From: a virus
IMG/VR virus record: IMGVR_UViG_3300048588_000268
Location: 1 to 22,738 of that record
Length of the DNA: 22,738 nucleotides
Direction: 5' to 3' (one strand)
In this document: positions 274 through 21,860 of the stretch, in pieces
Position numbering within the stretch: the stretch's first letter is position 1
How the letters are laid out: each line of letters starts with the position of its first letter
Position numbers and translations under genes: made by a program
Notes under the pieces: model-generated
Seen by the model: only the letters and a program-made list of their open reading frames with translations
Told to the model about the DNA's origin: nothing
Databases searched by the model: none

Positions 274-462
274 TCAGCCGCGCTTGGTGGCGCGCTCCCA
301 AATGGTGTCCAGCGTCTCGATCTGCTTCGCGCTGGGTCGGCGGCCTTCGGCAAGCTGGCGCTGTAGCGAGTCAACGAAGCCGAGTTCCCAATCACTCAGG
401 CGCTCGCTGCGCTTCTCGCAGTCCTCCAGCAGGGTCACGTACTCGTCAGCCCAGGTAGTCAT
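274..462 (-). CDS. Small phage protein, 62 aa, LSDWE..FVDSL..Q type
   Basis: The protein starts MTTWADEYVTLLEDCEKR and carries the segment LSDWELGFVDSLQRQL followed by KQIETLDTIWERATKRG. This pattern is familiar from small, mostly helical proteins of unknown function encoded in phage early regions of proteobacteria. That recognition is from memory, not a search. The start at 462-460 overlaps the end of the upstream gene by 17 nt, suggesting translational coupling. A longer in-frame version from 651 would be mostly shadow sequence of that upstream gene. It shows that real coding here is on the minus strand. Confidence 0.75.
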   Translation of the reverse strand: MTTWADEYVTLLEDCEKRSERLSDWELGFVDSLQRQLAEGRRPSAKQIETLDTIWERATKRG

Positions 463-673
463 CTTCGTCCTCCGGCCATCCGTGGCACAAGCACTCACAG
501 GGGTCTTCCGGGCCATCGCCGCCGTACCGAATCCAGGCGCACATGCTGCCGTCGTGGTGCGCGCATGCGCAGCCGTAGGTGCCACGCGGCCCGCTGGTGT
601 TTGTGCCTTCGTCCAACAGCCGCCCAACTGACGGTTCGAGCGGACCCACAACGGCCCGGCTACTTGGTCCCAT
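446..673 (-). CDS. Cysteine-rich small protein, 75 aa, starts inside attC-like site 1
   Basis: The protein has six cysteines (residues 35, 37, 45, 59, 61, 63) arranged as CxC, single C and CxCxC, with histidines at 39, 40 and 64, and an acidic end. Such spacing suggests metal binding, but no known family is recognised. The start ATG (673-671) is preceded by AGGAGG with a 6-nt spacer. Both lie inside the loop of attC-like site 1 (622-723), so roughly the first 17 residues are encoded by the recombination site. The recognisable Cys-rich core begins near residue 33. A shorter in-frame start could exist, but none has comparable Shine-Dalgarno support. Confidence 0.65.
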   Translation of the reverse strand: MGPSSRAVVGPLEPSVGRLLDEGTNTSGPRGTYGCACAHHDGSMCAWIRYGGDGPEDPCECLCHGWPEDEDDYLG

Positions 674-723
674 CTTCCACCTCCTGTGCGGGCCGTTGCG
701 GTCCGCTCAACCTAGCGTTGGGC
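622..723 (+). repeat. attC-like site 1 (102 bp)
   Basis: The ends are GCCCAAC (622-628) and GTTGGGC (717-723). Inner arms pair through GAGCGGACC/GGTCCGCTC and ACGGCCCG/CGGGCCGT. The left arm has one extra C (GGTTCGAG against GGTTGAG), giving plus-strand polarity. The loop carries, on the minus strand, AGGAGG and the ATG of the gene at 446-673. Confidence 0.8.
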
Positions 724-914
724 GTCTTGCTGTCTGGCACGCAAGCGCACCCGCGCGGGTTTGCGCATAGGCTCGGTTCGCCCAGGCACTCGAATTCAGC
801 CTCCGCAGGCTTCAGCCAAACGCACTGATCTCCAAGTCCTTCGCGCTCACACTCACATGTGCTGCGCGTGCAAACGCCGTCCACGCCCCGCCGAAGTGGC
901 TTTTTGTCGCTCAT
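660..914 (-). CDS. Cysteine-rich small protein, 84 aa, reads through attC-like site 1
   Basis: The protein has eight cysteines (15, 20, 22, 31, 43, 50, 56, 58), which suggests a metal-binding or knuckle-like fold. No family is recognised. The start ATG (914-912) overlaps the upstream stop in an ATGA junction, so it is probably translationally coupled. Its last 20 or so residues, after DSKTPNAR, are encoded by attC-like site 1, because the frame does not use the stop present in other site cores. The AAGACGCCCAAC junction is also seen at the end of the gene at 4095-4430. It is the third gene of a three-gene cassette. Confidence 0.6.
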   Translation of the reverse strand: MSDKKPLRRGVDGVCTRSTCECEREGLGDQCVWLKPAEAEFECLGEPSLCANPRGCACVPDSKTPNARLSGPQRPAQEVEDGTK

Positions 915-1135
915 CGCTGGTCCTTCGGCATCGTTCGCGCGGGTGCCGTCAAGCCACGCCAGCGCTTGGGCCGAGTGGCGGGCAACAGCACCGCGCCAGG
1001 GATAGCCCACACTCCGTCGCGCCACTCGCGGCGGAACAGGAAGCGCGACTGGCGGTACTCGACCTCATAGATACCTTCATGCACCGGATCAACTGCGACC
1101 GGGAACCAAGGCGTCACGCTGCGTCGTTGGCTCAT
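911..1135 (-). CDS. Hypothetical cassette protein, 74 aa
   Basis: The protein begins MSQRRSVTPWFPVAVDPV and contains EGIYEVEYRQSRFLFRREW, an aromatic, beta-rich pattern seen in short phage proteins of unknown function. The start (1135-1133) and end (913-911) both sit in four-base ATGA overlaps with neighbouring genes, so three cistrons are tightly coupled within one cassette between sites 1 and 2. The overlap decides the start against a longer in-frame version from 1174. No catalytic motif is visible. Confidence 0.65.
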   Translation of the reverse strand: MSQRRSVTPWFPVAVDPVHEGIYEVEYRQSRFLFRREWRDGVWAIPGAVLLPATRPKRWRGLTAPARTMPKDQR

Positions 1136-1374
1136 GGCTTGCCCAGGCCAATCGGGCACGGCTTCACCGGGCACTCGGCGCAGTAGCGGTGCGGCGCTGC
1201 GTGCGGGCAGTCCTCGAAGCGCGTTTCACACAGGCCGCGCAGCACATCAGCGCACTCGCGCAGCGTCTCGCGCCTCGCCGTACCGTAGGTGCTGGGGCTG
1301 GTCACATGGGCGTCGGCCTCGGCCTGCCATTTGCCCGCCAGTATCGCCAGCGTCGAAATCGAAATCGTGTCCAT
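1132..1374 (-). CDS. Small cassette protein with Cys-rich C-terminus, 80 aa
   Basis: Residues 1-50 form a helical segment, LAGKWQAEAD then ETLRECADVLRGLC. Residues 49-73 contain CETRFEDC, CAEC and C, six cysteines in all, which suggests a metal-binding tail. The ATG at 1374-1372 is the first gene start after attC-like site 2 in the leftward direction and lies 29 nt from its GCCCAAC core. The Shine-Dalgarno is weak (GAGAAAG). Similar helical domains with ETLRECAD are common in small phage proteins, but I cannot name the family. It ends in an ATGA overlap with the next gene. Confidence 0.65.
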   Translation of the reverse strand: MDTISISTLAILAGKWQAEADAHVTSPSTYGTARRETLRECADVLRGLCETRFEDCPHAAPHRYCAECPVKPCPIGLGKP

Positions 1375-1402
1375 CGTCGTCTTTCTCGGTCTTCCACCGG
1401 CC

Positions 1403-1506
1403 GCCCAACAAGCCAATCGAGGCGAGGTCAAACGGCCGGCAACAGTCAAGGTTTACTTGTCAGTTCAGCGCGGGCCGTTTGCCCCGCCTCATTGGCAACG
1501 TTAGGT
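1403..1506 (+). repeat. attC-like site 2 (104 bp)
   Basis: The ends are GCCCAAC (1403-1409) and GTTAGGT (1500-1506). Arms pair as GAGGCG/CGCCTC and CAAACGGCC/GGCCGTTTG, with an extra C in the left arm (CCAATCGAG against CCAATGAG). The TAA stop of the leftward gene at 1501-1668 is the complement of TTA inside the right core. Confidence 0.82.
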
Positions 1507-1668
1507 TTCCTTGGCTCGCGCCAGTACGCGCCGCAGCCAATCAGCGCCGCCAAGCCGCTCCCACTTCGCGGCCTCGGCGGCAGTCACCCGAGCGCGCACC
1601 GTGTGGTCGCGGCGCTCGTCGGGCGGCAGTTCTGGCCGCCCTGGTTTCTTCTTGGCCGGCGCCTTCAC
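1501..1668 (-). CDS. Small basic RHH-like protein, 55 aa, GTG start
   Basis: The N-terminus is a basic tail (KAPAKKKPGRPELPPDERR). It is followed by HTVRARVTAAEAAKWERLGG and ADWLRRVLARAK, a strand-helix-helix pattern like small ribbon-helix-helix DNA-binding proteins of phages and cassettes. The start is inferred as GTG at 1668-1666 in a GTGA overlap with the upstream stop. A longer frame to 1815 is antisense-like filler over the upstream gene. Its TAA is supplied by the right core of attC-like site 2. A DNA-binding role is an inference from the pattern. Confidence 0.6.
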   Translation of the reverse strand: MKAPAKKKPGRPELPPDERRDHTVRARVTAAEAAKWERLGGADWLRRVLARAKET

Positions 1669-1964
1669 TGCTTCAACGCCGCCAGTTCGTCGGCCAGCGT
1701 CACGGTTTCGCCGCGCTCCATCATGTCGCGCAGCTTCACGCTGGCGGCGTACCACTTGGGCGGGCACAGGTTCACCATGAAATGCGCGTCGGTCAGCGGG
1801 CAGACCGTGCGCCACGCGGCGCGGTCGTCGCTGTCTTCCTCGTACTCCTGCACCAGCAGGCCGGGCCGCTTGTCGTCCGGGTCCATGCAGCTCACCACCG
1901 TGCTGCGCACCAGCCGCAGAGAGCCCAGCGCGGGGCCTTCGATCAGCGATTCACCGGCGTACAT
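1665..1964 (-). CDS. Hypothetical cassette protein, 99 aa
   Basis: The protein begins MYAGESLIEGPALGSLRLVR. It has an acidic middle (QEYEEDSDDRAAW) and ends in a Leu/Glu-rich helix. The start ATG (1964-1962) has AGGAG upstream in the leader GGAGACTGACGATG. The gene at 2407-2826 has a near-identical leader, GGAGACTGACAGATG, pointing to related cassette 5' ends. It is the first gene of a two-gene cassette between sites 2 and 3 and overlaps the next gene by GTGA. No family recognised. Confidence 0.7.
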   Translation of the reverse strand: MYAGESLIEGPALGSLRLVRSTVVSCMDPDDKRPGLLVQEYEEDSDDRAAWRTVCPLTDAHFMVNLCPPKWYAASVKLRDMMERGETVTLADELAALKQ

Positions 1965-2049
1965 CGTCAGTCTCCTCGCGCCACCGTGGCGCGTGCGGTT
2001 AATGTGACACAACAACACGCGGGCGTCAAGCGGTATTTGTGGCACGGAA

Positions 2050-2100
2050 ACCTAACACTTCGTTCCAGCCGACCTTCGGCGGCTGAACTCCACGTTAGGC
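2050..2100 (+). repeat. attC-like site 3 (51 bp)
   Basis: The ends are ACCTAAC (2050-2056) and GTTAGGC (2094-2100). The stem CAGCCG/CGGCTG closes on a short loop around ACCTTCGG, with an extra C in the left arm (GTTCCAG against GTTCAG). The right arm, GGCGGCTGAACTCCACGTTAGGC split at its centre, resembles the consensus 3' half used to amplify environmental cassettes. The stop of the gene at 2095-2397 lies in the right core. Confidence 0.85.
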
Positions 2101-2397
2101 CCCACGGTTGCAGCAGCCGTAGCCCTCGTTCTCGGGGCAGTCGTCCGGGTTGCCGCTGCACTCCGGGTAGTCCCCTCGAATTCGCTGCTCTGCAATGTCG
2201 AGCGCGTCCAGGCGGCCCTCGTCGTAGCTGCTCCTATGCTTCCCAGCGGCGACATGCACCTCGTCAAACAGCATCGAGACGGTGACCGCACAGCGCACCC
2301 TTGCCGCGGAAACTGCGCGGCGCACAAGCTGCGTCGGCCCTTCATCGGCCTCGCGGCTCGCGTTCACGATCTGGTCAATTTCTTGTTGGGTCAACAT
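2095..2397 (-). CDS. Hypothetical cassette protein with Cys-rich tail, 100 aa
   Basis: Residues 1-75 are predicted helical (QQEIDQIVNAS, then SYDEGRLDALDIAEQRI). Residues 80-96 hold four cysteines in an acidic, Gly-rich tail (ECSGNPDDC, GYGCC). The start (2397-2395) is supported by TAGGAG with a 6-nt spacer and lies 21 nt from the left core of attC-like site 4. The TAA (2097-2095) is the complement of TTA in the right core of site 3, so neighbouring attC-like sites define both ends. Function unknown. Confidence 0.72.
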   Translation of the reverse strand: MLTQQEIDQIVNASREADEGPTQLVRRAVSAARVRCAVTVSMLFDEVHVAAGKHRSSYDEGRLDALDIAEQRIRGDYPECSGNPDDCPENEGYGCCNRGA

Positions 2398-2406
2398 TGG
2401 TTGCTC

Positions 2407-2826
2407 CTAAGTTCCCGGCCTAACAGCCGGATCAAGCGCGGACCCGCCTCCGGCGGGCCGCTTATCCGGTTCGTTAGGCCCGCGTTCGATGGCCTGCTTC
2501 AGCAGTTCGCACGCGCTGCGAAAGCCGTGCCCGAAGTCGCCTCCGAGGCCGTCTGGCGCAAAGTCCTGCACGGCACGGTCGCACAGCGCGGCCATCCGCT
2601 CGCGCTCTGCGGCCAGATCGCCCAGCATGACGGCGCGGTGTGGTGCATTTTTCGGCCAGTCAAGGTCAAACTCCTTGGCTGATTCGCGTGCGTCCTGCTC
2701 ATCCACGCATAGCGTTGCAGGTCCGTCGCAGCTCACCGCATACCATCGCTCCGGCAGCGGGCCTAACTCCTCGCTGAAGGCGGGACCGTCGCCGGCCGGA
2801 TGCTCGGCGGTACTCGTGGAATCCAT
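2407..2826 (-). CDS. Hypothetical protein, 139 aa, starts in attC-like site 5 and reads through site 4
   Basis: The central region WYAVSCDGPATLCVDEQDAR, then DWPKNAPHRAVMLGDL, resembles small early phage proteins of unknown function. A following helix (ERERMAALCDRAVQDF) and FRSACELLKQAIERG complete the folded part. The ATG (2826-2824) and its AAGGAG lie inside the loop of attC-like site 5, so about 20 N-terminal residues come from the site. The last 23 or so residues, from GPNEPDKRP on, are translated from site 4 because the frame misses the core stop. Site-derived sequence thus caps both ends. Confidence 0.65.
   Translation of the reverse strand: MDSTSTAEHPAGDGPAFSEELGPLPERWYAVSCDGPATLCVDEQDARESAKEFDLDWPKNAPHRAVMLGDLAAERERMAALCDRAVQDFAPDGLGGDFGHGFRSACELLKQAIERGPNEPDKRPAGGGSALDPAVRPGT
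2418..2479 (+). repeat. attC-like site 4 (62 bp)
   Basis: The ends are GCCTAAC (2418-2424) and GTTAGGC (2473-2479). Arms pair as CCGGAT/ATCCGG and AAGCG/CGCTT, and CCGCC/GGCGG closes a short loop. The left arm has an extra C (GGATCAAGCG against GGATAAGCG), giving plus-strand polarity. Confidence 0.87.
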
Positions 2827-2881
2827 CTGTCAGTCTCCTTCTGCGCGGGCCGTCGCCGGCCCCTTAGCTCGAACGTTATGG
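2761..2881 (+). repeat. attC-like site 5 (121 bp)
   Basis: The left core is GCCTAAC (2761-2767) and the right core GTTATGG (2875-2881), one base off GTTRRRY. Arms align through CGCTGAAGG on the left and the complement CTTAGC on the right, with one extra G in the left arm, plus a self-complementary GCCGGC-rich inner stem. The large loop holds AAGGAG and the ATG of the leftward gene at 2407-2826. It is the least regular of the nine sites. Confidence 0.62.
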
Positions 2882-2921
2882 CGCAGGGCTGGCTTAGGGT
2901 TCGCCCCAACAAAAATTCCGC

Positions 2922-2950
2922 TTGCGTATTGGCGCATGATGCTCTATTAT
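2922..2950 (+). promoter_or_regulatory. Sigma70-type promoter inside the sense cassette
   Basis: TTGCGT (2922-2927) and TATTAT (2945-2950) are separated by exactly 17 bp, close to consensus and the most AT-rich stretch nearby. The small palindrome GCATGATGC (2934-2942) lies between the boxes and could be an operator. Transcription would run rightward into 2984-3363, against the surrounding operon. Confidence 0.72.
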
Positions 2951-2983
2951 TCAGGCATCGCAACACGCAACCGGAGACACCAA

Positions 2984-3184
2984 ATGTTCACTCTCGACAA
3001 CACCAGCGGTTTCAGCCAAGCCGACCTCGACCTCATGAACCGCGCCCTGCGCCTGCTGATCGAGGACGGGGTCGAGGAATCGAACGCCGCCGACATCGTG
3101 AACAACAACTGGCAGGAGTCCGGCAACACCGTCGTCTCGCTCGCCGCTGTTCGCACCCCGCACCTGCGGCTGCCCGGCCAATGA
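2984..3184 (+). CDS. Small acidic helical protein, 66 aa, in a sense-oriented cassette
   Basis: The protein begins MFTLDNTSGFSQADLDLMNR and is mostly helical, with the motif RLLIEDGVEESNAADIVNNN. The start has GGAG 7 nt upstream and follows a near-consensus promoter by about 30 nt. It reads with the attC polarity and against the flanking operon, like a classical integron cassette. The stop overlaps the next start as ATGA. I do not recognise a named family. Pairing with a small HTH gene is compatible with a toxin-antitoxin or regulator pair, but nothing in the sequence proves that. Confidence 0.72.
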   Translation: MFTLDNTSGFSQADLDLMNRALRLLIEDGVEESNAADIVNNNWQESGNTVVSLAAVRTPHLRLPGQ

Positions 3185-3363
3185 GCGGCAGGCCCTCCCG
3201 CGAAGTGGGCCTCGCGCTGGCCCACATCCAGCGCACCGGCTGCACGCCCCAGGCTGCAGCCGACAAGTACGGATTGGCCGTGTCCACCGTGCGCCGTGCC
3301 CTTGCTCGCGCAGGGGTGCCGGCTCGGCCAGTCGGCAGGCCAGCAGCAGCGCGTGCGCCATAA
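3181..3363 (+). CDS. Small helix-turn-helix protein, 60 aa
   Basis: Residues 20-45, TPQAAADKYGLAVSTVRRAL, form a clear helix-turn-helix like those of resolvase-type or transposase-type DNA-binding domains. A basic Pro/Ala-rich tail (PARPVGRPAAARAP) follows. The ATG overlaps the preceding stop, so the two genes form a bicistron. The TAA stop (3361-3363) lies inside the left core CCATAAC of attC-like site 6, the position where many true integron cassette genes end. It probably binds DNA and may act on its own promoter (palindrome at 2934-2942), but that is inference. Confidence 0.75.
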   Translation: MSGRPSREVGLALAHIQRTGCTPQAAADKYGLAVSTVRRALARAGVPARPVGRPAAARAP

Positions 3364-3457
3364 CACGCCCATCGAGCGGACCCTCACCGGCGGGCAGCAG
3401 TTGTGCGTCTTCATGTTTGGTCATCGCCGGTGGGGTCCGCTCATGGGCACGTTATGC
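3358..3457 (+). repeat. attC-like site 6 (100 bp)
   Basis: The ends are CCATAAC (3358-3364) and GTTATGC (3451-3457). Long arms pair as GCCCAT/ATGGGC, GAGCGGACC/GGTCCGCTC and CACCGGCG/CGCCGGTG, with an extra C in the left arm (CATCGAGC against CATGAGC). The left core holds the stop of the sense gene at 3181-3363 and the right core holds the stop of the antisense gene at 3452-3667. Confidence 0.87.
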
Positions 3458-3667
3458 GGCTGCGGGTTGCTCGGTGAATCGGCAGTGCGAAAGGCGCACG
3501 GTCACTTCCTCACCCGGCTCACGTTCGTTGTAGCTGCACATTGCGCCCGCCTTTCCGGCAGTCACTTCCAGATCGGCCCATTCGCCGGCTACTCCTTTCA
3601 CGCGCGCGGAAAATGTGCCCTTTCGTGAGTGGTTCACCACGTACTCTTTTCCGATTTGCAGTTCCAT
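3452..3667 (-). CDS. Small beta-rich cassette protein, 71 aa
   Basis: The protein begins MELQIGKEYVVNHSRKGTFSA. Alternating hydrophobic residues (ARVKGVAGEWADLEVTAG, then EVTVRLSHCRF) suggest a small beta-barrel or SH3-like fold common in small phage proteins. The start has a strong GGAGG with short spacing and lies 25 nt from attC-like site 7. The TAA is the complement of TTA in the right core of site 6 (GTTATGC). It is the single gene of its cassette. Function unknown. Confidence 0.72.
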   Translation of the reverse strand: MELQIGKEYVVNHSRKGTFSARVKGVAGEWADLEVTAGKAGAMCSYNEREPGEEVTVRLSHCRFTEQPAAA

Positions 3668-3691
3668 GTTTCCTCCATAGCGGCGTCAGCC

Positions 3692-3747
3692 GCATAACAG
3701 TTCATCCAAGCGGACGGCTGCGCCGCCGCTTAATTCAGGCGTTAGGC
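3692..3747 (+). repeat. attC-like site 7 (56 bp)
   Basis: The ends are GCATAAC (3692-3698) and GTTAGGC (3741-3747). The stem is AAGCGG/CCGCTT with a short loop around ACGGCTGCG. The arm alignment tolerates an extra C on the left, but this is less clear than in the other sites. The stop of the DUF4406 gene lies in the right core. Confidence 0.8.
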
Positions 3748-4044
3748 CGCAAACTCGTCCACCGTGCCGATCTCCAGGCCCAGCCGGTGCGCCAAGTGCA
3801 ATTCCAGGTGCGCCCCCTTGCTGTTCATCCAGCCCGGCAGCAGGGCAAGCGCATCGCAATCGCACAGTGCCTTGATGTCCTCGCGCAGGTAGTCGTGCCA
3901 GTCGCCGCCAGTCTCGGCGTTGATCTCGGCTGGATTCACCGCAATGTGCCCGCGCTCGCGCAACTTGGCTGCAGCAGCGTGGAAGGCCGGAAAGTTGAAC
4001 TCTGGCAGGCCGGTCATCGGGCCGCTGATGTAGATGCGTTTCAT
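3742..4044 (-). CDS. DUF4406 domain protein, 100 aa
   Basis: The protein opens MKRIYISGPMTGLPEFNF and continues with FHAAAAKLRERGHIAVNPAE, a DYLREDIKAL-CDCDALALLPGW stretch and NSKGAHLELHLAHRLGL. This is the full layout of DUF4406, a Rossmann-like fold related to nucleoside 2-deoxyribosyltransferases and frequent in phages. A role in nucleotide metabolism is suggested by the family only. MKRIY is the usual family start and is used here; an upstream GTG at 4098 would lie in attC-like site 8. The TAA stop is given by the right core of site 7. Confidence 0.88.
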   Translation of the reverse strand: MKRIYISGPMTGLPEFNFPAFHAAAAKLRERGHIAVNPAEINAETGGDWHDYLREDIKALCDCDALALLPGWMNSKGAHLELHLAHRLGLEIGTVDEFAA

Positions 4045-4068
4045 GTTTCGTTTCGCTTCGGCCACGCG

Positions 4069-4170
4069 GCCTAACAACTCGCTCAGGCGGACCGTCACCG
4101 GCCGTCCGCATCGCCTCGGTTCTCACGCGCCGTGCAGCCGGTTCCGGCCCGCATAGCTCGGCCGTTGGGC
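4069..4170 (+). repeat. attC-like site 8 (102 bp)
   Basis: The ends are GCCTAAC (4069-4075) and GTTGGGC (4164-4170). The left arm, GCCTAACAACTCGCTCAGGC, is nearly the textbook R''-L'' half of an integron attC. It pairs with GCATAGCTCGGCC on the right, with an extra C in GCTCAGG. An inner ACCGGC/GCCGGT stem extends it. Confidence 0.83.
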
Positions 4171-4430
4171 GTCTTGTCGCAGCCGTTGCAGACTGGCGTC
4201 TCAAGCGTCCTGCGGAATGGCTGGCGCTTCCGCAGGCCCGTCACTTCGGTGCGGTCAACCGTGGCGCTCAGTTGCTGCGGGAAGCGCCACAGCCCGCACC
4301 GGCCGCATTGCTTCTGCCGTAGCCCGGCCTTGTGTTGCACCTCGGCCCACTCGTGCCACGCCAGGTATCCGTCCGGGGCTTGGTCGCCGGGCTTGTAGGT
4401 CGCCTGCTCCAAGATGCACGCAACACGCAT
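4095..4430 (-). CDS. Zinc-ribbon-like small protein, 111 aa, reads through attC-like site 8
   Basis: Residues 20-40 hold an aromatic helix (YLAWHEWAEVQHKAG). Residues 42-45 (CGRC) and 81-84 (CNGC) form two CxxC pairs typical of a zinc ribbon. The start ATG (4430-4428) shares its A with the upstream stop (TGATG), so it is likely coupled. After CNGCDKTPNG the frame enters attC-like site 8 and continues for about 25 residues, so the tail is site-encoded. The KTPN junction matches the end of the gene at 660-914. Nucleic-acid binding is likely for the fold, but the role is unknown. Confidence 0.7.
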   Translation of the reverse strand: MRVACILEQATYKPGDQAPDGYLAWHEWAEVQHKAGLRQKQCGRCGLWRFPQQLSATVDRTEVTGLRKRQPFRRTLETPVCNGCDKTPNGRAMRAGTGCTARENRGDADGR

Positions 4431-4648
4431 CACCAGATCCCTCCGCAGTCCGGGCACGGCAACAGGTAGTCGCAGTCCGGGTCCATGCCATCGCCACGGC
4501 AGTGCAAGCACTGGTCGTCGGGCTCGTCGTCGTAGTCGGTGCAGTCGTCGCAGCCGTTGCAGCCCTGCGCGCAGGTTCTTTCGCGCTCCGGAGCCAGCCG
4601 CCCAACTCCTCGTTGCAGCGGAGCGCCGCCGGCATCAGTCGTTGTCAT
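4430..4648 (-). CDS. Nine-cysteine small protein, 72 aa, starts in attC-like site 9
   Basis: Cysteines at 26, 30, 33, 36, 47, 50, 59, 65 and 68 form repeated CxxC and CxxxC units, including CNGCDDC, CLHC and CPDC, in an acidic background. This suggests two zinc sites, DnaJ-knuckle-like in spacing, but the family is not identified. The ATG (4648-4646) and AAGGAG, 5 nt upstream, lie inside the loop of attC-like site 9. It is the first gene of a two-gene cassette and overlaps the next gene by one base. Confidence 0.68.
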   Translation of the reverse strand: MTTTDAGGAPLQRGVGRLAPERERTCAQGCNGCDDCTDYDDEPDDQCLHCRGDGMDPDCDYLLPCPDCGGIW

Positions 4649-4692
4649 CGAAACTCCTTGCGGGCGCCGCCCGCTGAACTCGAACGTTAGGC
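4600..4692 (+). repeat. attC-like site 9 (93 bp)
   Basis: The ends are GCCCAAC (4600-4606) and GTTAGGC (4686-4692). Arms pair as CAGCGG/CCGCTG with an inner GCGCCG/CGGCGC-type stem, and there is an extra G in the left arm (GTTGCAGCGG against GTTCAGCGG). This is the rightmost site; ordinary phage genes follow to the right. Confidence 0.82.
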
Positions 4693-5001
4693 CCGCAACA
4701 GGCCCTCGTCGTCCACATCGCCCACGTAGTCATCGCCTGCTCGAATGGCAAGAATCGTCCGCCTCGCCACGTCCCACATCCTGTCATCGCGTTGCACCAC
4801 AACCACGCGGCAGCACCGCTCGCGCTCTGCAGCCACCGCAGCGCGCAGCCGCTCGATCTCCTCCACCGCTGCTTTCAGCGCCAGCACCGCGCCGGTCGGC
4901 GTGCCGTGCGCCTGCCAGTAGTCGTACAACTCGTGCGGCGTCAGGTGCAGGCTGTAGTTGATCCGCCAGCACGCCAGGTCCAGGGGTTTGTCCTCAAGCA
5001 T
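4687..5001 (-). CDS. Hypothetical phage protein with coiled coil, 104 aa
   Basis: A segment LTPHELYDYWQAHGTPTG is followed by a heptad-like helix (AAVEEIERLRAAVAAERERC) and an acidic end. Coiled-coil proteins with AVEEIERLRA are frequent in phage early regions. The ATG (5001-4999) overlaps the end of the upstream gene by 8 nt. The TAA is the complement of TTA in the right core of attC-like site 9, so this is the phage gene at which the cassette array begins. Function unknown. Confidence 0.72.
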   Translation of the reverse strand: MLEDKPLDLACWRINYSLHLTPHELYDYWQAHGTPTGAVLALKAAVEEIERLRAAVAAERERCCRVVVVQRDDRMWDVARRTILAIRAGDDYVGDVDDEGLLRA

Positions 5002-5245
5002 CTGCCCACTCCCACACCACCGCCTTCAGTGCGCCGTTCCTGCCCACGGGCCGCTGGACTGATGGCTTCACCCGGGCCATGTCGCGCAGCGTGTACACCA
5101 CGCGGCGCACCGCGCGTTCGTCGGCCTGCAGTTCCCAGGCCAGGTCGTTCACCGTCCACGGCCCGCGCTGCAGGGCCAGCGTCACGTCGATCGTGTTGAC
5201 GATGGCTCCGCGCAGGGTGCGGCGCGTTTTGCTCGGCAGCGGCAT
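4994..5245 (-). CDS. Winged-helix DNA-binding-like protein, 83 aa
   Basis: The region TIDVTLALQRGPWTVNDLAW followed by ADERAVRRVVYTLRDM looks like the helix-turn-helix and recognition helix of a winged-helix domain. It is followed by a short beta wing ending VVWEWADA. The ATG at 5245 gives a TGATG overlap with the upstream stop; another in-frame ATG at 5251 is also possible. The context, within a tightly overlapping leftward early operon, fits a small regulator. No specific target can be inferred. Confidence 0.65.
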   Translation of the reverse strand: MPLPSKTRRTLRGAIVNTIDVTLALQRGPWTVNDLAWELQADERAVRRVVYTLRDMARVKPSVQRPVGRNGALKAVVWEWADA

Positions 5246-5460
5246 CAGCATGCGTCTGGCCCCTGCGGCTCGCTCCACCAGCACACGCGCTCCAGGGGGC
5301 CGCCGGTGGCGGCGTCCATCCACTGTTGCCACTCGCTGTCGTACCAGCCCTGCAGGCATTCGCCGTCGGCCACGCGGCACAGCACGGTCGTGTCGCTGTC
5401 GGGCAGGCTGACGTGGGCGCTGTGCCAGGTCAGCACCTCGAATTCGTCGGTGGGCGTCAT
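5245..5460 (-). CDS. DUF551-like protein, 71 aa
   Basis: The spacing W-HSAHVSLPDSDTTVLCRVADG, then GWYDSEWQQWMDA and VCWWSEPQGP resembles DUF551-type phage proteins, which open with a W..v.e.LP....VL pattern and end in a W..lP-like motif. The function of that family is unknown. The ATG lies in an ATGA overlap with the upstream gene, and the stop shares a base with the downstream start. Family assignment is by eye. Confidence 0.65.
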   Translation of the reverse strand: MTPTDEFEVLTWHSAHVSLPDSDTTVLCRVADGECLQGWYDSEWQQWMDAATGGPLERVCWWSEPQGPDAC

Positions 5461-5921
5461 CGTTTGGCCTCTGCCAGGCGCCGTGCGCGCCAGTCGCGCG
5501 TGATTTGGCCGCCGCGCCAGCCGGCCGGCGGGGTGAACGTGAACCTGTGGTCCGTGCCGTGCGGGATCACGCGCACCTGCACGCCGTGCGGGTTGGTGGC
5601 GGGCGTGGCCGGGTCCAGGCCCACACGGGCAGGCGGTTGCCGCACCGCGTGCAGCCGCTGCCGTGGGCCGACGATGCTGCTGGCGTCAGCCGGGGCGTGG
5701 CTGGCCAGCCACCATTGGGCCGGCGCTCGCCCGCCGTGCCAGCGGCGGTACACGAGCCCGGCGTTGGCCAGGTTGGTCAGCACGGCGCCGGCCCGGTTGC
5801 GGGTGGCGCGCAGCACGTCGGCCACCTGCTGTGTGTTCAGGCCGTGGCGCTCGGCGCGGGCCAGGGCCTGCAGCACGAGCGGTTCGCCCTTGCCGGGGCG
5901 GTGGCGGGCGTGGTTAGGCAT
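5457..5921 (-). CDS. Winged-helix phage protein, 154 aa
   Basis: Residues 15-55 (LVLQALARAERHGLNTQQVA, then RNRAGAVLTNLANAGLVYRR) form a winged-helix domain of the kind that controls stepwise strand or DNA binding in MarR-like proteins. The Pro/Arg-rich C-terminal half looks less ordered. The ATG at 5921 has GGAGG in good position and overlaps the upstream gene by 8 nt; a longer frame to 6062 is shadow coding. Likely a DNA-binding early protein; the specific role is unknown. Confidence 0.72.
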   Translation of the reverse strand: MPNHARHRPGKGEPLVLQALARAERHGLNTQQVADVLRATRNRAGAVLTNLANAGLVYRRWHGGRAPAQWWLASHAPADASSIVGPRQRLHAVRQPPARVGLDPATPATNPHGVQVRVIPHGTDHRFTFTPPAGWRGGQITRDWRARRLAEAKR

Positions 5922-6534
5922 GGTTGAGCTCCTCCCACAGGATGTTGCTCGGCCGCTGGTCCAGGCCCAGGCTGTCGGCCAGGCCGTCGGCCAGGTGGTG
6001 CAGCTGGTGCACGCTGCCGTCGTTGACCACCAGGGTGTCGGCGCCGGCCATGAGGTCGGCATAGTGGGTTTCGCTGCTGTGCGGCTCGACGGCGCTGACG
6101 CGGCTGCGGCTGATGCCGACCAGGTGCGCGCCCCACTCGCGCACGGCGCGCGCTTCGTTGGGGTAGCGCACGTCAGTGATGACGATGCGGTCGTGCACGG
6201 GTTGCGCGGTGTGCAGGCCCAGGCGCAGCCGCATGATGCGCACCCAGATGTCGTGGTCCAGGCTGCGGCCGCATTCGGTGCCCAGCACCTGCAGCAGGCG
6301 TCGGGCGCTGAACCCCAGGCCGGGCAGCGGCTGCTCTTTGAGGTGGCGCTCGGTGAGGTAGGCGTGGTCCACGTCTGCGGCGCGCATCACGGTGAGCGCG
6401 GCCTCGCGCACGGGGTCGGCAAAAGCGAACCGCGCAAACCCGTAGGCGCTGACGAGGCGCCAGGCGAAGGTGTCCTTGCCGGCGCCGGCGGGGCCGGTGA
6501 GGGCGACGAGGGTGGTGGTGTCGGCGGCTGCCAT
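5914..6534 (-). CDS. Deoxynucleoside monophosphate kinase-like protein, 206 aa
   Basis: The P-loop GPAGAGKDT lies at residues 14-22 and is followed by an AFADPVREA segment. A later stretch, IVITDVRYPNEARAVREWG, is typical of phage dNMP kinases (T4 gp1 type) and of adenylate-kinase-like P-loop folds. Such enzymes phosphorylate dNMPs to feed phage DNA synthesis. The length is near that of shorter family members. The gene lies between the 85-aa protein and the winged-helix gene, with 5 nt before it and an 8-nt overlap after it. The kinase class is confident; substrate range cannot be read from sequence. Confidence 0.85.
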   Translation of the reverse strand: MAAADTTTLVALTGPAGAGKDTFAWRLVSAYGFARFAFADPVREAALTVMRAADVDHAYLTERHLKEQPLPGLGFSARRLLQVLGTECGRSLDHDIWVRIMRLRLGLHTAQPVHDRIVITDVRYPNEARAVREWGAHLVGISRSRVSAVEPHSSETHYADLMAGADTLVVNDGSVHQLHHLADGLADSLGLDQRPSNILWEELNHA

Positions 6535-9888: not shown

Positions 9889-10344
9889 TCAGGTGGTGAG
9901 CGGCCGCCCGCGTGTATTGGCGGCGCGGCGCTTGATCTCGTCGATGCTGTCGATGTATCGCGCCAACGCTTCGTGGGTGAACCAGCCGTCGGCGCGCTCG
10001 AACTCGTAGCGCAGGTATTCCAGCACGGCCTGCTTGTTCTCCAGCGGCAGCCGTTCCAGGCCTTCGGCCAGGCGCAGGGTGTCGGCATCGGTGCGCTCGC
10101 CCTTCTTGGGGCCTGCGCCTTGGAGCAACCAGTTGACGTTGACCTGGGCTTCCTTGCATAGCGCAACGGCGTGACTCAGTTCTGGGTAGCCAAGGCCAAG
10201 AAGCCACTTCCTCGCTGCGTTTGGTGTCTTGCCTACTTTTCGGCCAAGTGCTGCGTTGCGGCCGTGACCGCGGGGGATTCCGAGTTCATCGCACAGCTCA
10301 TGCATACGGCGAGCAAAGGCTTCGCGGTCATCGTCGGTGTCCAC
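9889..10344 (-). CDS. Phage XRE-type repressor, no peptidase domain, about 151 aa
   Basis: A helix-turn-helix is visible: RRMHELCDELGIPRG, then RNAALGRKVGKTPNAARKWL, LSHAVALCKEAQVNVNWLLQG. This is the core of XRE/cI-like DNA-binding domains. The C-terminal half (LENKQAVLEYLRYEFERAD and IDSIDEIKRRAANTRGR) is helical with no S24 serine-lysine peptidase. SOS-driven self-cleavage is thus unlikely; an antirepressor could be used instead. The frame is open to an ATG at 10410, but that start lies in the operator, so an internal start is more plausible: GTG 10344 (chosen) or ATG 10305. Neither has a clear Shine-Dalgarno. Confidence 0.72.
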   Translation of the reverse strand: MDTDDDREAFARRMHELCDELGIPRGHGRNAALGRKVGKTPNAARKWLLGLGYPELSHAVALCKEAQVNVNWLLQGAGPKKGERTDADTLRLAEGLERLPLENKQAVLEYLRYEFERADGWFTHEALARYIDSIDEIKRRAANTRGRPLTT

Positions 10345-10383
10345 GGGCCGGAATGTGCCGGAACCGAAAGGCACCCTTGGTGC

Positions 10384-10413
10384 TTGCTGAAACCTAACTC
10401 TAGGTTCCATAAT
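10384..10413 (+). promoter_or_regulatory. Rightward early promoter (pR-like) with repressor operator
   Basis: TTGCTG (10384-10389) and CATAAT (10408-10413) are 18 bp apart. The spacer holds AACCTAACTCTAGGTT (10391-10406), a dyad AACCTA-N4-TAGGTT, and shares CTAACTYTAGGTTCCATA with the leftward promoter. The predicted start is about 10420, practically at the ATG of the next gene. On the opposite strand CATTAT (10414-10409) could be the -10 of a weak repressor promoter. Confidence 0.75.
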
Positions 10414-10421
10414 GCCGCCCC

Positions 10422-10673
10422 ATGAACACGTCAGCCCCCCTGGATCAAGCCATCGGCTTGGTCGGCCTCACGGCGTTGGCCCGTGAGTGCAAGGTGTCGC
10501 ACCAGGCGGTGCGCAAGTGGCAACGCGCCGGCCGCATGCCGCGCACCGAGTGGACCGGCGAGACGGCCTACAGCGTCACCATCGAGCGCATCACCGGGGG
10601 CGAAGTTCGCAAGGCCGACTTGTTGAGGCCCTGGCCGGCCGTGTGCGCCGAAGAGGCGCGCGATGCGGTCTAG
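10422..10673 (+). CDS. Cro/YdaS-like regulator, 83 aa
   Basis: The pattern LDQAIGLVGLTALARECKVS, HQAVRKWQRAGRMP, then TIERITGGEVRKADLLRPWP matches the YdaS/Cro group of phage HTH proteins (putative antitoxin family), which replace Cro in many prophages. It should bind the operators around it and oppose the repressor. It is the first gene under the rightward promoter, whose start lies only about two bases before the ATG, and no Shine-Dalgarno fits, so a leaderless mRNA is likely. Confidence 0.82.
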   Translation: MNTSAPLDQAIGLVGLTALARECKVSHQAVRKWQRAGRMPRTEWTGETAYSVTIERITGGEVRKADLLRPWPAVCAEEARDAV

Positions 10674-11128: not shown

Positions 11129-12640
11129 ATGGCTTCTTGGGGAGATACCGAAATCGCCGAGCGTCCAACCCGCGCGGACGTGCGCGATACGCCACCGCAC
11201 AGTGTGGAGGCCGAGCAGAGCGTGCTGGGCGCGCTGATGCTCGACAACGCCGCGTTGCACGTCATCAGCGACCTGGTCGACGTGCAGAGTTTCTACCGGC
11301 ACGAGCACGCGGCGATCTTCGTGGCCATCGAGTTGATGGTGAAGGCCGGCCAGCCGGCTGACCCGATCACGGTGTTCGAGCACCTGCAGGCCCGCGACAT
11401 GGGCGAGGACGCGGACCTGGCCTACCTGAATTCGCTGCAGGCGTCGGTGCCCAGTGCGCGCAACGTGCGCCGGTACGCGGAGATCGTTGCCGGCCACTAT
11501 GCCGACCGGGCGCTGCTGGCGGCCAGTGACGAGGCCGCGCGCATCGCGGCCGACCACCTCATGCCGCTGGCGCAGCGCATGGAGCGCATCGCCTCGGCCA
11601 TGGCCAAGGTCGAGCGGCTGAGCAAGGGCGTGGGCGGCCGGGTGCCGCTGCTGCGCCTGGACGCGCTGCGCGCCGCGCACGAGCAGGTGCGTTGGACGGT
11701 CAAGCACGTGCTGCCGGCGGCCAGCCTGGGCATGATGTTCGGCGGCAGTGGCACGTTCAAGAGTTTTATCGCGCTGGATGCTGCGCTGCACGTGGCGCAC
11801 GGGCTGCCCTGGATGGGGCGTATCACCACACAGGCCCCGGTGCTGTACGTGGCGGCCGAGGGTGGCGCCGGCCTGTGGAGCCGCATTCACGCCTGGCACA
11901 AGGCGCGCGGTCTGAAGTGGGGCGACCTGCCGTTCTACGTGGTGCCCGCGGCGGTGGATCTGACGGTCGACGCCTGGCGCGTGGTGGACGCCGCGCAGGC
12001 CGTGGGTGTGTGCCCTGGCCTGGTGGTCGTGGACACGCTGAGCCAGACCTACAGCGGCGAAGAGAACAGCGCAAACGAGATGGCTGCGTATTTCCGCGAG
12101 CTGGGCCTGCGGTTTCGGGAACTGTGGGGCTGCAGCGTGCTGCTCGTGCACCACAGTGGCCATGCCAGCACCGAGCGCCCGCGGGGCAGCAGCGCCATAC
12201 GGGCGAACGTCGATTACCTGCTGGGCGTGTTCCGTGACGAGAAGGAATTGCTCGCCACAGTGACCTGTGACAAGCAAAAGGACGGCGAACTCTTCGATGA
12301 CGCCACCTTCCACATGAGCGTGGTCGAGCTGGGCGTGGACGACGACGGCGACAAGCTGACATCGCTGGTGGCGCGACACCTGAACAGCGCCGAGGAGGTC
12401 GAGCGTGCGCGCCTGGCCGAGCAGGCGGCCGGCCGCGGCGGGCGCAACAGCAGCTTCATGGCGCTGGTGTCCAACGGCATGGAGATCAACGCGCTGCGCA
12501 AGTCGTTCTATGAGTTGCTGGAAGGCCTGGACGCCGAGGCCAAAAAGAAGGCGTTCTTCCGCGCCCGGCAGTGGGCTGTCGACCAGGGGTACATCGATGT
12601 CGCGCAGGGCATCGTGATCGATCTTCGGCAGGGCGCCTGA
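11129..12640 (+). CDS. Replicative helicase-like protein: DnaB N-domain fused to RepA-like AAA ATPase, 503 aa
   Basis: Residues 22-125 (PPHSVEAEQSVLGALMLDNA, FYRHEHAAIFVAIELM, ITVFEHLQ) match the DnaB N-terminal domain, which binds primase. From about 190 the core changes to a RepA/AAA_25-type ATPase: Walker A GGSGTFKS (205-212), AAEGGAGLWSR (242-252), Walker B LVVVDTLS (298-305), LLVHHSGH (338-345) and RGSSAIRANVDYLLG (352-366). A C-terminal winged-helix-like end follows (SFYELLEGLDAEAKKKAFFR). It probably unwinds DNA at the phage origin, with the repeats just downstream as candidate target. No strong Shine-Dalgarno precedes the ATG. Confidence 0.85.
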   Translation: MASWGDTEIAERPTRADVRDTPPHSVEAEQSVLGALMLDNAALHVISDLVDVQSFYRHEHAAIFVAIELMVKAGQPADPITVFEHLQARDMGEDADLAYLNSLQASVPSARNVRRYAEIVAGHYADRALLAASDEAARIAADHLMPLAQRMERIASAMAKVERLSKGVGGRVPLLRLDALRAAHEQVRWTVKHVLPAASLGMMFGGSGTFKSFIALDAALHVAHGLPWMGRITTQAPVLYVAAEGGAGLWSRIHAWHKARGLKWGDLPFYVVPAAVDLTVDAWRVVDAAQAVGVCPGLVVVDTLSQTYSGEENSANEMAAYFRELGLRFRELWGCSVLLVHHSGHASTERPRGSSAIRANVDYLLGVFRDEKELLATVTCDKQKDGELFDDATFHMSVVELGVDDDGDKLTSLVARHLNSAEEVERARLAEQAAGRGGRNSSFMALVSNGMEINALRKSFYELLEGLDAEAKKKAFFRARQWAVDQGYIDVAQGIVIDLRQGA

Positions 12641-14066: not shown

Positions 14067-14597
14067 TTGATCCCGCATGTGCCTGTCAAACAGTCGGAGT
14101 TCGCGGCGGCGGTGGGGATTTCTCAGCCGGCCGTCAGTGACCTGGTGCGCGGCGGCGTTCTGCCTGAGGGTGGGTGCGCCGATGAATGGCTGCTGGCCTA
14201 CTGCCACCGGCTGCGCGAGCAGGCGGCCGGGCGCTACACCGAAGGGCCGCTCGATCTGGCCCAGGAGCGCGCCGCGCTGGCGCGGGCGCAGCGCGAATCC
14301 GTGGAGCTCAAAAACGGCGTGCTGCGCGGCGAGTACGCCGCCGTGTCGTTGCTGGCCGAGGTGCTGGCCACGGCGAGCCAGGCGGTGGCCGAGCGGTTCG
14401 AGCACCTGCCGGGCCAGCTGCGCAAGGCGTGCCCCGACCTGCCGCCCGCTGCGATCGACCGCGCGATGGCGACGATTGCCGCGGCGCGCAACGAGTGGGT
14501 TCGGCAGACCGTGGCGCTGGTGTCGGCCGGCGTGACGTCGACCGACGACGACGAGCCCGAGCTCGAGGGCCTGGACGATGAGCCGCGCGCCGACTGA
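14067..14597 (+). CDS. Terminase small subunit, Nu1-like, 176 aa
   Basis: The N-terminus (QSEFAAAVGISQPAVSDLVR) is a winged-helix/HTH that would bind cos, as in lambda Nu1. The central helices (QERAALARAQRESVELKNGV) and LREGEY-like dimer part follow, then an acidic end. The start is uncertain: TTG 14067 (4 nt after a GGGGG) or GTG 14079; no ATG fits. It overlaps the large subunit by 20 nt. Together they form the DNA packaging motor. Confidence 0.87.
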   Translation: MIPHVPVKQSEFAAAVGISQPAVSDLVRGGVLPEGGCADEWLLAYCHRLREQAAGRYTEGPLDLAQERAALARAQRESVELKNGVLRGEYAAVSLLAEVLATASQAVAERFEHLPGQLRKACPDLPPAAIDRAMATIAAARNEWVRQTVALVSAGVTSTDDDEPELEGLDDEPRAD

Positions 14598-16623
14598 GAC
14601 GCTGCGCGCCGTCGTCGACGCTGCGCTGTCTGGCCTGGCGCCGCTGCGCGCCGAGCCGCCGCAGTCGCTCAGCCAGTGGGCGGCCCAGCACTTCAGGCTG
14701 AGCGCCGAGAGCAGCCACACCCAGGGCCAGTGGGAGGCTTACCCGTTCCAGCGCGGCTGGATGGATGCGTTCAGCGACGATGCCATCGAAGAAGTCACCG
14801 TGCGCAAGAGCAAGCGCGTGGGCTACACCAAGACGCTGGTGGCGTTCATCGCCTACAACGCGGCGCACCGCCGGCGCAAACAGGCGCTTTGGCAGCCCAC
14901 CGACGACGACCGCGACAGCTTCGTCAAGAGCGAGATCGACCCCATGCTGCGCGACGTGGCGGCGCTGCGCCCCGTGCTGCTCAGTGGCAAGGAGGACACG
15001 CTCAAGCTCAAGCAGTTCATGGGCAGCGTTTTGCACACCCTGGGCGGCAAGGCTGCGCGGGCGTTTCGGCGCATCACGGTCAGCGTGGCCATGCTCGACG
15101 AGGCGAGCGCGTTTGACCTGGTGGTCGAGAAATCGATCGACCCGGTGGAAGGCGCGCGCGGGCGCCTGGAGGGCGCGGCGTTCCCCAAGCTCGTGGCGGG
15201 CAGCACACCGCGCGTGAAGGGGATCGACCACATCGAGACCCGCGAGGCCAACGCCGACGCAGTGATGCGCTATCACGTCGTCTGCCCGCACTGCCAGGCC
15301 GAGCACCCGCTGCAGTGGGGCGGCAAGGACGTCCGCCACGGGTTCAAGGGCGGCGGGCTCGGTGGTGACGACTCGCCGGTGCGCCACATCTGCCCGCACT
15401 GCCACGGCGCCATCACTCAGGGCGACTACCTGCAGCTGTGGGCCGATGGCGCGTGGGTCAGCGCCTGCGGAAACTACCGGTACGGCGCCGACGCCCGGTG
15501 GCGCGATGCCGACGGCGCGCTGCGCAGCCCGCCCCGGCACGTCGCCTTCCACATCTGGACGGCCTACAGCCCCCAGCGCAGCTGGGCCGACATCGTGCGC
15601 GAATTCCTTGAGGCCAAGCGCAAAGCCGACGAGGGCCACAACGGGCCGCTGATCACCTTCATCAACGAAACCCTGGGCGAGCTGTGGGAAGAAAAGTTCG
15701 AGCGTGCCGACGAGCACGAGCTACAGCGCCGGGCCGAGCCCTACCGGCGGTTCACCATCCCCATGGGGGGGCTCGTGCTGGTGTGCGGCATCGACACCCA
15801 GGACGACCGCTGGGAGGCCGTCACCTGGGCCATCGGCCGCGGTGAGCAGATGTGGTGCGTGGACTACTCCGTGCTCTACGGCAACCCCGCTGACGAGCGC
15901 GAGTGGGCCGACAAACTCGACGCCTACCTGGCCACCACCTTCCAGCACGCCAGCGGGCAGGCCATGAAGATCGAAGCAGTGGCCATCGACACCATGGGTC
16001 ACTTCACGCACCAGGCGTACAACTACTGCCGGCAGCGTGAACGACGGCGCGTGTTTGCCGTGCGCGGTGACCCGCAGGGCGGCAAGCAGATCAAAGGCAA
16101 GGCCACCATCCAGGACGTCAACTGGCGCGGCAAGGTGCTCAAGCGCGGCGTGCGGCTGTGGTACGTGGGCACCGACACCGCCAAAGACGTGCTGTACGGC
16201 CGCCTGCACGTGCAGACGCCTGGCCCGGGTTATGTGCACTTCAGCCAGGAGCTGCCGGCCACGTTCTACGCCGGCCTGACGGCTGAAAGCCGCGTGCCCG
16301 TGCGCACCGCGCGCGGCGTGGACTACCGGTGGGTCAACCCGCCCGGCCGGCGAAACGAGCCCCTTGACTGCACCGTCTACGCCCTGTTCTGTACGCACGC
16401 CCTCGGCCTGCACACACGCACCGCGCGCGAATGGGACCGGCTGGAACAGGCCGTGCAGCCCGCCACGGCCGATCTGTTTGCCGGCCCTGCCGAGGCCGCT
16501 GTCAGCCTGGCCCCCCCCCCCGCCCAGCCCGCCCCGCTGCAACGCAACGCCGAACCGCTGGCCGTGCCCCCGCCCAGCACCTACATGCAGCAGATCAACC
16601 GCTTGCGACAGGCCCGCCGCTGA
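14578..16623 (+). CDS. Terminase large subunit, GpA family, 681 aa
   Basis: The Walker A-like KSKRVGYTKTL lies at residues 77-87. A Walker B-like SVAMLDEASAF is at 169-179. Two CPHC pairs (236-239, 272-275) form a zinc site, and the nuclease part includes GIDTQDDRWEAV (404-415) and VAIDTMGHFTH. The length is close to lambda gpA (about 640). It would package DNA and cut cos ends. The C-terminus is Pro/Ala-rich (PPPAQPAPLQ). Confidence 0.95.
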   Translation: MSRAPTETLRAVVDAALSGLAPLRAEPPQSLSQWAAQHFRLSAESSHTQGQWEAYPFQRGWMDAFSDDAIEEVTVRKSKRVGYTKTLVAFIAYNAAHRRRKQALWQPTDDDRDSFVKSEIDPMLRDVAALRPVLLSGKEDTLKLKQFMGSVLHTLGGKAARAFRRITVSVAMLDEASAFDLVVEKSIDPVEGARGRLEGAAFPKLVAGSTPRVKGIDHIETREANADAVMRYHVVCPHCQAEHPLQWGGKDVRHGFKGGGLGGDDSPVRHICPHCHGAITQGDYLQLWADGAWVSACGNYRYGADARWRDADGALRSPPRHVAFHIWTAYSPQRSWADIVREFLEAKRKADEGHNGPLITFINETLGELWEEKFERADEHELQRRAEPYRRFTIPMGGLVLVCGIDTQDDRWEAVTWAIGRGEQMWCVDYSVLYGNPADEREWADKLDAYLATTFQHASGQAMKIEAVAIDTMGHFTHQAYNYCRQRERRRVFAVRGDPQGGKQIKGKATIQDVNWRGKVLKRGVRLWYVGTDTAKDVLYGRLHVQTPGPGYVHFSQELPATFYAGLTAESRVPVRTARGVDYRWVNPPGRRNEPLDCTVYALFCTHALGLHTRTAREWDRLEQAVQPATADLFAGPAEAAVSLAPPPAQPAPLQRNAEPLAVPPPSTYMQQINRLRQARR

Positions 16624-20252: not shown

Positions 20253-21860
20253 ATGCCCTCCTTCTGGCAACGTGCTGTCTCCCGCCTGGGCCTGGTGCCG
20301 GCGTCGGCCGTGGCCGGGCAGGTGCGGGCGGCTCAGGTCGACGCTGCGCGGCGCGTGGCCGGTAGCCTGCGTGGGCAGCAGCGTTCGCTGATCGCAGCGC
20401 TCACCAGCAACGACACCACCACCTGGCAGGCAGACGGCCTGCACATCAACGCCGCCAGCGAATCCGGCCTGGCCGTGGTGCGGGCGCGCAGCCGCGACGC
20501 CGCCGTCAACAACCCCTGGGGGCGCCGATTCGTCGGCCTCGTGCTGCGCAACGTGCTTGGCCCCAACGGCGTGCGCTACCAGAGCCGCGTGCGCGTGGGC
20601 AGCACGGGCGAGCTCAACAAGTCCGCCAACACCCGCCTGGAGGCCGCCTGGGCCGCGTGGGGCCGCAAGGGCGCGTGCGACGTCACCGGGCGCTACACCT
20701 GGCGCACCGTGCAGCGCATCGTCATGCGTCACTGGGTTGTTGACGGCGAGGCCTTCGTGCGCCTCCTGCCCGGCCGCGGCCCGCACCGGTTTCAGGTGCA
20801 GGTGCTGCCGCCTGAAATGGTGCCCACAAGCACCCGCCTGGACCTGGCCAACGGCCACAAGGTGCGCCAGGGCGTCGAGGTCAACGCCGAAGGCGCGGTG
20901 CAGGCGTACTACATCCGCCACGACAACCCCGCGCTCGACCCGCTGGGCGTGGCCGAGCAGGGTGTCAGCCCCCGCGGGCTCAAGCGCATCCCGGCCGCAG
21001 AAATGCTGCACCTGTTCACGCCTGACGAGGCCGGGCAGCTGCGCGGCGTGCCGTGGATGGCCGCCGGCCTGAAATCGGCCTACCAGGCGGCTGATTTCGC
21101 CACCGCCGGCCTGAACAAGGCGCGCGAAAGTGCCAAGCGGGGCGGCTGGCTCGAGGCCATGCCCGAGCACGTGGACCCGCCCAGTGGCGCCAGCGGTGCC
21201 GAGCGCCTGGCAGACGGCCAGGCCGCTGACGGCACGCCGTACCAGACCCTGATCGACGGCACCTGGGACCAGCTGCCCTACGGCTACACCGCCAAGCCGT
21301 TCGAGAGCGACTACCCCAACATCGAGTACGGGCAGTTCATCAAGGATTGCCTGCGCAACGTCGCCAGCGGTTTCGAGGTCAGCTACATCAGCCTGGGCAA
21401 CGACCTGGAGGCCGTCAACTACAGCAGCGGCCAGCTCGGCCTGGAAGACGAGCGCGCGCTGTGGCGCACCGTGCAGGCCGCGTTTGCCGAGGACGACTTC
21501 TGTGCGCCGGTGTTCGGCCTGTGGCTGCGCTACGCCCTGGTGGCCGCGCCCGAACTGTCGGGCCTGAGCTTTGACCGCATCGACCAATACGCTGCCGCCG
21601 CGGCGTGGCAGTGCTACCGCTGGGCGCCCCTGGACCGCGAAAAACACATCTCGGCCCAGCGCGATGCCATCGATGCGCGCATCAGCAGCCCGCAGCGTGA
21701 GATCGTGGCCAATGGTGACGACCCCGACGAGATCCTGGCCGAGATCCGCGACTGGGCGCAGCAAACCGCCGACCTCCCGGCCGTGCAGCGCCCGGGTTCG
21801 GCAACGCAGCCGCAAGAGCCCGCGCGCGTGCGCCTGGTGGCCAGCCGCGACATGGAGTAA
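20253..21860 (+). CDS. Phage portal protein, lambda family, 535 aa
   Basis: The sequence ARSRDAAVNNPWGRRFVGLV, WVVDGEAFVRLLPG, IPAAEMLHLFTPDEAGQLRG and a long helical middle are typical of lambda gpB-type portals, about 530 residues long. It forms the ring through which DNA enters the head. It follows the second repeat and precedes the protease-capsid gene by 9 nt. The Pro-rich end (GSATQPQEPARVR) is usual. Confidence 0.93.
   Translation: MPSFWQRAVSRLGLVPASAVAGQVRAAQVDAARRVAGSLRGQQRSLIAALTSNDTTTWQADGLHINAASESGLAVVRARSRDAAVNNPWGRRFVGLVLRNVLGPNGVRYQSRVRVGSTGELNKSANTRLEAAWAAWGRKGACDVTGRYTWRTVQRIVMRHWVVDGEAFVRLLPGRGPHRFQVQVLPPEMVPTSTRLDLANGHKVRQGVEVNAEGAVQAYYIRHDNPALDPLGVAEQGVSPRGLKRIPAAEMLHLFTPDEAGQLRGVPWMAAGLKSAYQAADFATAGLNKARESAKRGGWLEAMPEHVDPPSGASGAERLADGQAADGTPYQTLIDGTWDQLPYGYTAKPFESDYPNIEYGQFIKDCLRNVASGFEVSYISLGNDLEAVNYSSGQLGLEDERALWRTVQAAFAEDDFCAPVFGLWLRYALVAAPELSGLSFDRIDQYAAAAAWQCYRWAPLDREKHISAQRDAIDARISSPQREIVANGDDPDEILAEIRDWAQQTADLPAVQRPGSATQPQEPARVRLVASRDME

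Follow-up and report, generated by a model that had tools for sequence, protein, structure and literature searches.

The stretch of DNA analysed here, referred to as the window, is the complete IMG/VR record IMGVR_UViG_3300048588_000268, a linear sequence of 22,738 bases. Its gene content is that of a temperate-type tailed phage, with a CI-like repressor (9889..10410, − strand; phrog_4, 8.4e-8), a Cro-like gene (10422-10673, +), a replicative helicase (11129..12640, +; phrog_19 and others), the terminase large subunit TerL (14578..16623, +; phrog_15, 700 bits), a portal gene (20253-21860, +) and a leftward early region. The helicase and TerL served as markers for finding relatives. Nine hairpins occupy the left end of the leftward early region, and to their right lie called phage early genes (4687..6534, −), including a dNMP kinase (5914-6534; phrog_139, PF21448). 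The record stops to the left of this array, near the expected position of attI; no attI was seen in the window, and an integron integrase (TIGR02249) is absent from the whole 22.7 kb. A nucleotide search of GenBank phages at the megablast level gave no match to the record, an Rfam scan of the window returned nothing at gathering thresholds, and an exact search found no contig overlapping the left end.

The hairpins were compared with integron attC sites by means of a covariance model, R1, built from 18 attC sites of class 1 plasmids and acidobacterial chromosomes, all of them non-phage. These training sites were chosen by an R-box and stem rule together with our own selection, and the MAFFT alignment of their arms stayed gapless. 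R1 detects seven of the nine sites, all on the + strand, with E values from 3e-9 to 5.5e-4: site 1 (622..723; 22.9 bits, E 5.5e-4), site 2 (1403..1506; E 4.3e-6), the short-form sites 3 (2050..2100; E 3.3e-9), 4 (2418..2479; E 5e-6) and 7 (3692..3747; E 5.2e-9), site 8 (4069..4170; E 1.5e-6) and site 9 at the right end of the array (4600..4692; E 1.3e-7). The seven matches crowd within 4.1 kb, which meets the CALIN criterion of at least two attC sites in a close array. Nothing significant was found by R1 in 18 related phage loci (266 kb). A second model, R2, built from 31 attC sites of relatives that had themselves been chosen from R1 matches, recovers the same seven sites with E ≤ 7e-5 (5.9e-6 for site 1). 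It should be mentioned that an R1 search with the filters off missed long sites that the default filters found.

Sites 5 (2761..2881, +) and 6 (3358..3457, +, with a long stem) are missed by both models, and R2 misses both even when short segments are searched. Their R boxes deviate, being GTTATGG at site 5 and CCATAAC/GTTATGC at site 6. They are kept as attC-like because, by eye, both show L''/L' arms that include the extra base, GCT[G]AAGG/CCTTAGC at site 5 and CAT[C]GAGCGGACC/GGTCCGCTCATG at site 6. A simple scan for R''...R' with a stem finds five sites on the + strand of the window, compared with 0-2 on both strands together in 20 shuffled windows. At all nine sites, the more stable fold is that of the bottom strand. 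Among the 31 sites of relatives, at least 90% have a C in the bulge column of the attC model (column 16), and the given structure pairs 85% of the cells; 60 cells have changed on both sides, a count that none of 500 shuffles (19.0 ± 3.6) attained. The features by which an integron attC site is recognised, namely R boxes, L boxes and an extrahelical base, are thus present, with two of the nine sites missed by the models.

The sequence-only reading had described nine imperfect palindromes with attC hallmarks, RYYYAAC/GTTRRRY-type ends throughout and, at eight of them, an extra unpaired base in the left arm as in the attC L'' box. All nine hairpins lie at the positions that it gave, and the hallmarks hold, for seven sites by model and for sites 5 and 6 by eye as attC-like. 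The extra base also holds and fits the bulge of the attC model. The statement about the ends must be corrected, as two sites are without perfect ends. That reading had further expected attC model matches on one strand, and the seven matches, all on the + strand, agree with this. The array in the window is a real attC array. As a separate observation, the attC lengths in these phages form two groups, of about 51-69 and 86-121 nt. Candidate attC sites picked up by regular expression in locus L011 were rejected as arising from a G+C-rich repeat.

The small ORFs between the sites lie mostly on the − strand, and several begin or end within the sites themselves. The loop of site 1 contains the antisense Shine-Dalgarno sequence (SD) and ATG of ORF 446..673 (−), which has no Pfam or PHROG match; the loops of sites 5 and 9 likewise contain the SD and ATG of ORFs 2407..2826 (−) and 4430..4648 (−), respectively. 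The TAA in the R' box provides the stop codon of ORF 2095..2397 (−) at site 3, of ORF 3452..3667 (−) at site 6 and of ORF 4687-5001 at site 9, and the stop of ORF 3742..4044 (−) lies in R' of site 7. ORF 1665..1964 (−) has an SD and no PHROG match. ORF 1132..1374 (−), whose start codon was chosen by eye, has a DNA homologue in a cassette of the phage integron L080 (82.8% identity over 122 bp), and the alignment terminates at the R'' box, GCCGCC(C/T)AACA. The only sense-oriented cassette (2984..3363, +) consists of ORF 2984-3184 and an HTH-like ORF starting at 3181, the TAA of which lies in R'' of site 6. The two small ORFs of this cassette overlap, and a promoter-like stretch is visible by eye upstream; it is possible that the cassette is self-expressed.

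Most cassette ORFs have no family match in Pfam or PHROG. ORF 3742..4044 is DUF4406 or nucleoside 2-deoxyribosyltransferase-like (PF14359, 97 bits; phrog_355, 134 bits), and DNA methyltransferases are found among the cargo of the relatives L065 and L090. Counter-defence and host takeover are inferred to be the probable uses of the cassettes.

With TerL and the helicase of the window, 46 viral loci were retrieved; all viral sequences used in this study are metagenome assemblies. Two of the loci, L035 and L036, have attC arrays adjoining the early genes, and L036 encodes a true integron integrase (428 bits, cut-off 265). The best match of this IntI to a solved structure is 2A3V, the V. cholerae IntI (residues 57-366, E 6.9e-80). 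The V. cholerae enzyme is the integrase of a chromosomal superintegron and does not come from a phage. A search with the L036 IntI led to 28 viral loci with IntI relatives, as well as to bacterial contigs. When a tree was built that also took in IntIs of Burkholderiales chromosomes, acidobacteria and class 1 integrons, 20 sequences from phages or prophages grouped in a single clade (100/99); the viral IntIs of L077, L079 and L081 fall outside it, making 23 phage-labelled sequences in the tree. The tree holds one very long row (L167). Small MAG contigs in the clade are labelled 'prophage' by tree position alone, the Rubrivivax contig being the only one annotated.

An IntI match was found in 134 of 399 Burkholderiales genomes. 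The IntI of the Rubrivivax contig is 79% identical to that of L036, the next best Burkholderiales sequence listed being 62% identical, and the TerL and helicase of the contig are 74% and 56% identical to those of the window. The contig carries early genes, attC sites and intI, and next a tyrosine-integrase-like gene on the opposite strand; the genes farther out, an ABC transporter permease among them, we read as host chromosome. The host group of the lineage is probably Burkholderiales.

In relatives sequenced far enough to the left, early genes are followed by the attC array, attI and intI, with a phage integrase after these in L036 and L064. The left edge of L036 carries intI together with two ORFs, one small and HTH-like, the other phage-integrase-like; in L064, intI is flanked by the phage early genes on one side and a second integrase on the other, past which come further genes, one of them endolysin-like. 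For L036, L064 and the Rubrivivax contig, gene names outside the families that were searched for come from reading the sequence. The attI is conserved in relatives, its pattern being present in 14 viral contigs. Two contigs, L140 (oriented position 13842) and L141 (10488, near a TerL-like gene), have the phage attI without a called intI beside it, and these attI sites might be relics or sites served in trans. A further IntI-like protein, annotated as xerD and 46.6% identical to the L036 IntI, is encoded at 4680-5678 of L136 (Virus Rctr41k, KX853513) among many small genes, with no R2 attC match.

The orientation of the cassette genes, which had gone unnoted in the sequence-only reading, is the reverse of that in bacterial integrons. 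When 13 phage arrays are oriented so that intI lies to the left and the attC sites are on the + strand, 74 of the 76 called cassette ORFs are antisense to attC and point toward intI. The usual integron arrangement, in which cassette genes run along attC and away from intI, is therefore not met; there are no data on promoters. The ORF calls were made with an ad hoc codon scorer trained on genes of the window and L036. As this codon-based caller gave nothing on the chromosomal controls, the longest ORF of each interval was also counted without codon information. It is antisense in 32 of 42 phage intervals (sense being favoured in 10), whereas in Burkholderiales chromosomal integrons it lies on the sense strand in 34 of 39. 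Of the 34 long attC sites (≥80 nt), 17 contain an antisense SD together with the start codon of an ORF, as does only 1 of the 28 short ones, and the R' TAA ends an ORF of 40 or more codons at 22 of 42 GTTA boxes. These last two counts are only suggestive, because they have no null and longer sites offer more room for a start codon.

Comparison of close relatives reveals differences between arrays at the expected recombination points. Long aligned backbone segments of L059 and L070 are 92-97% identical, whereas the arrays between them give no alignment; the identity spans intI to GGTCGAATT.ACGTTAG, which contains the attI GTTAG, breaks there, and resumes at the R' box of the last site. L072 and L073 share 1,095 + 580 bp at 100% identity; what sets them apart is a single 523-bp cassette, complete with an attC, that sits exactly at the attI G|TT in L073. 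The genes of this cassette recur in L064, and one of them also in L065, elsewhere in the array. The pairs L062/L080, L069/L059 and L061/L059 likewise diverge at or near the attI box. Cassette exchange at G|TTRRRY is accordingly seen in L059/L070 and L072/L073. None of the near-identical pairs includes the window, and no near-identical partner was found for its own array. These comparisons, without recombination data, suggest that the phage arrays work. It is noted that L063 and L064 differ by about 52 bp (at ~10340, reversed coordinates) in otherwise identical arrays; this difference falls within a cassette gene, away from any attC box, and is left out of the cassette changes.

Based on these results, we propose, with a probability of roughly 0.85, that a temperate phage lineage harbours a resident integron, of which the array in the window is the cassette portion. 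There is no experiment behind this proposal, and intI and attI of the window's phage are inferred from relatives because neither is in the window. The sequence-only reading, an integron-like attC array in a phage early operon, is supported by the model matches and by the breakpoints in relatives. Relatives that differ by segments with GTTRRRY breakpoints, which it had set as a check, do exist, outside the window's own array. It was correct in finding normal phage early genes on the right and no integron integrase in the window, to which we add that the lineage encodes its own IntI, as found in relatives. It had also placed the array under a phage-type leftward promoter; the leftward early region holds, and the promoter itself rests on that reading alone.

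In the proposed mechanism, the folded bottom strand of an attC would be recombined at G|TTRRRY with attI or a second attC by an IntI that either the phage or the host provides. Small accessory genes would be added and removed in this way, a step for which the support is comparative and not experimental. As the genes are antisense to attC and directed toward intI, early phage transcription would be expected to cross the cassettes into intI. The ribosome-binding site and start codon would often be supplied by an attC loop and the stop by the TAA of the neighbouring R' box, so that an inserted cassette could be translated wherever it is inserted.

Three alternatives were considered. The first is a passive CALIN: the phage would have acquired part of an integron from a host chromosome, and that part would now be inert. 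In its favor, intI is absent from the window (though the sequence breaks off close to where attI is expected), hosts offer a rich pool, as judged from the frequency of IntI matches in Burkholderiales genomes, and CALINs in phages have been described (Qi et al. 2023, PMC9892861). However, several relatives have an array and intI at a comparable place, the phage IntIs form their own clade, the orientation is opposite to that of chromosomal arrays, and the arrays of near-identical relatives differ with breakpoints at R boxes. We regard this alternative as unlikely. It is also improbable that the window's phage has lost intI and relies on host integron integrases acting on its sites. The attI of L140 and L141 without an adjacent called intI and the common occurrence of IntI on host chromosomes would be consistent with such a loss, but L036, L064 and the Rubrivivax prophage, with a helicase related to that of the window, retain intI. 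Finally, hairpins that are terminators or mRNA structures, with mosaicism produced by ordinary homologous or illegitimate recombination, are very unlikely: some loops do contain a ribosome-binding site and start codon, leaving a role at the RNA level possible, but the sites fit an attC model that was built independently, R boxes and bulge being conserved, the L073 insertion starts and ends at the G|TT cut and carries its own attC, and IntI is present in relatives.

Returning to the resident integron as the preferred reading, a bolder form of it would be a phage-domesticated integron class, combining reversed cassettes, early transcription toward intI, start codons in attC loops, stops in R' boxes, and plug-in genes swapped among phages and with host integrons. 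The balance tips only slightly toward this form. Integrons are known as bacterial gene-collecting devices; a phage lineage that kept such a device, its genes turned to match a phage operon and single cassettes visibly gained or lost, would provide phages with site-specific renewal of their accessory genes and let small genes pass directly between the integrons of phage and host. The precise difference between L072 and L073 makes cassette capture in the phage directly testable.

Integrons in phages are already known. Qi et al. (2023, PMC9892861) reported integrons or CALINs in Shewanella phage M16-3, V. anguillarum phages, TJE1, PH101 and P12002L; of six phage attC sites assayed there with IntI1, five recombined, and the arrays of TJE1 and PH101 are called typical. 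In the literature searched, with preprints and most subscription papers outside its scope, no description of the present lineage or of reversed cassettes was found; the conserved, reversed form thus did not appear in those papers. The likeness to the phages of Qi et al. lies in attC arrays inside phage genomes, some with intI. The present lineage differs in having one phage IntI clade, reversed cassettes, and gain or loss between near-identical phages. In M16-3, by contrast, the small genes next to intI are annotated as pointing away from it, and the IntI of this phage is 45.4% identical to that of L036. Class 1 integrons share the IntI, attI and attC machinery, including the attC arms and bulge, but their cassette genes read away from intI by annotation; the class 1 IntI, taken from a P1 record with a class 1 integron, is about 56% identical to that of L036. 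Burkholderiales chromosomal integrons have attC sites recognised by the same model (50 matches, ten loci) and contribute close non-phage IntIs to the tree. They differ in that their cassette ORFs are mostly on the attC strand, their attC sites are mostly short, and their listed IntIs, the prophage excepted, are at most 62% identical to the L036 IntI.
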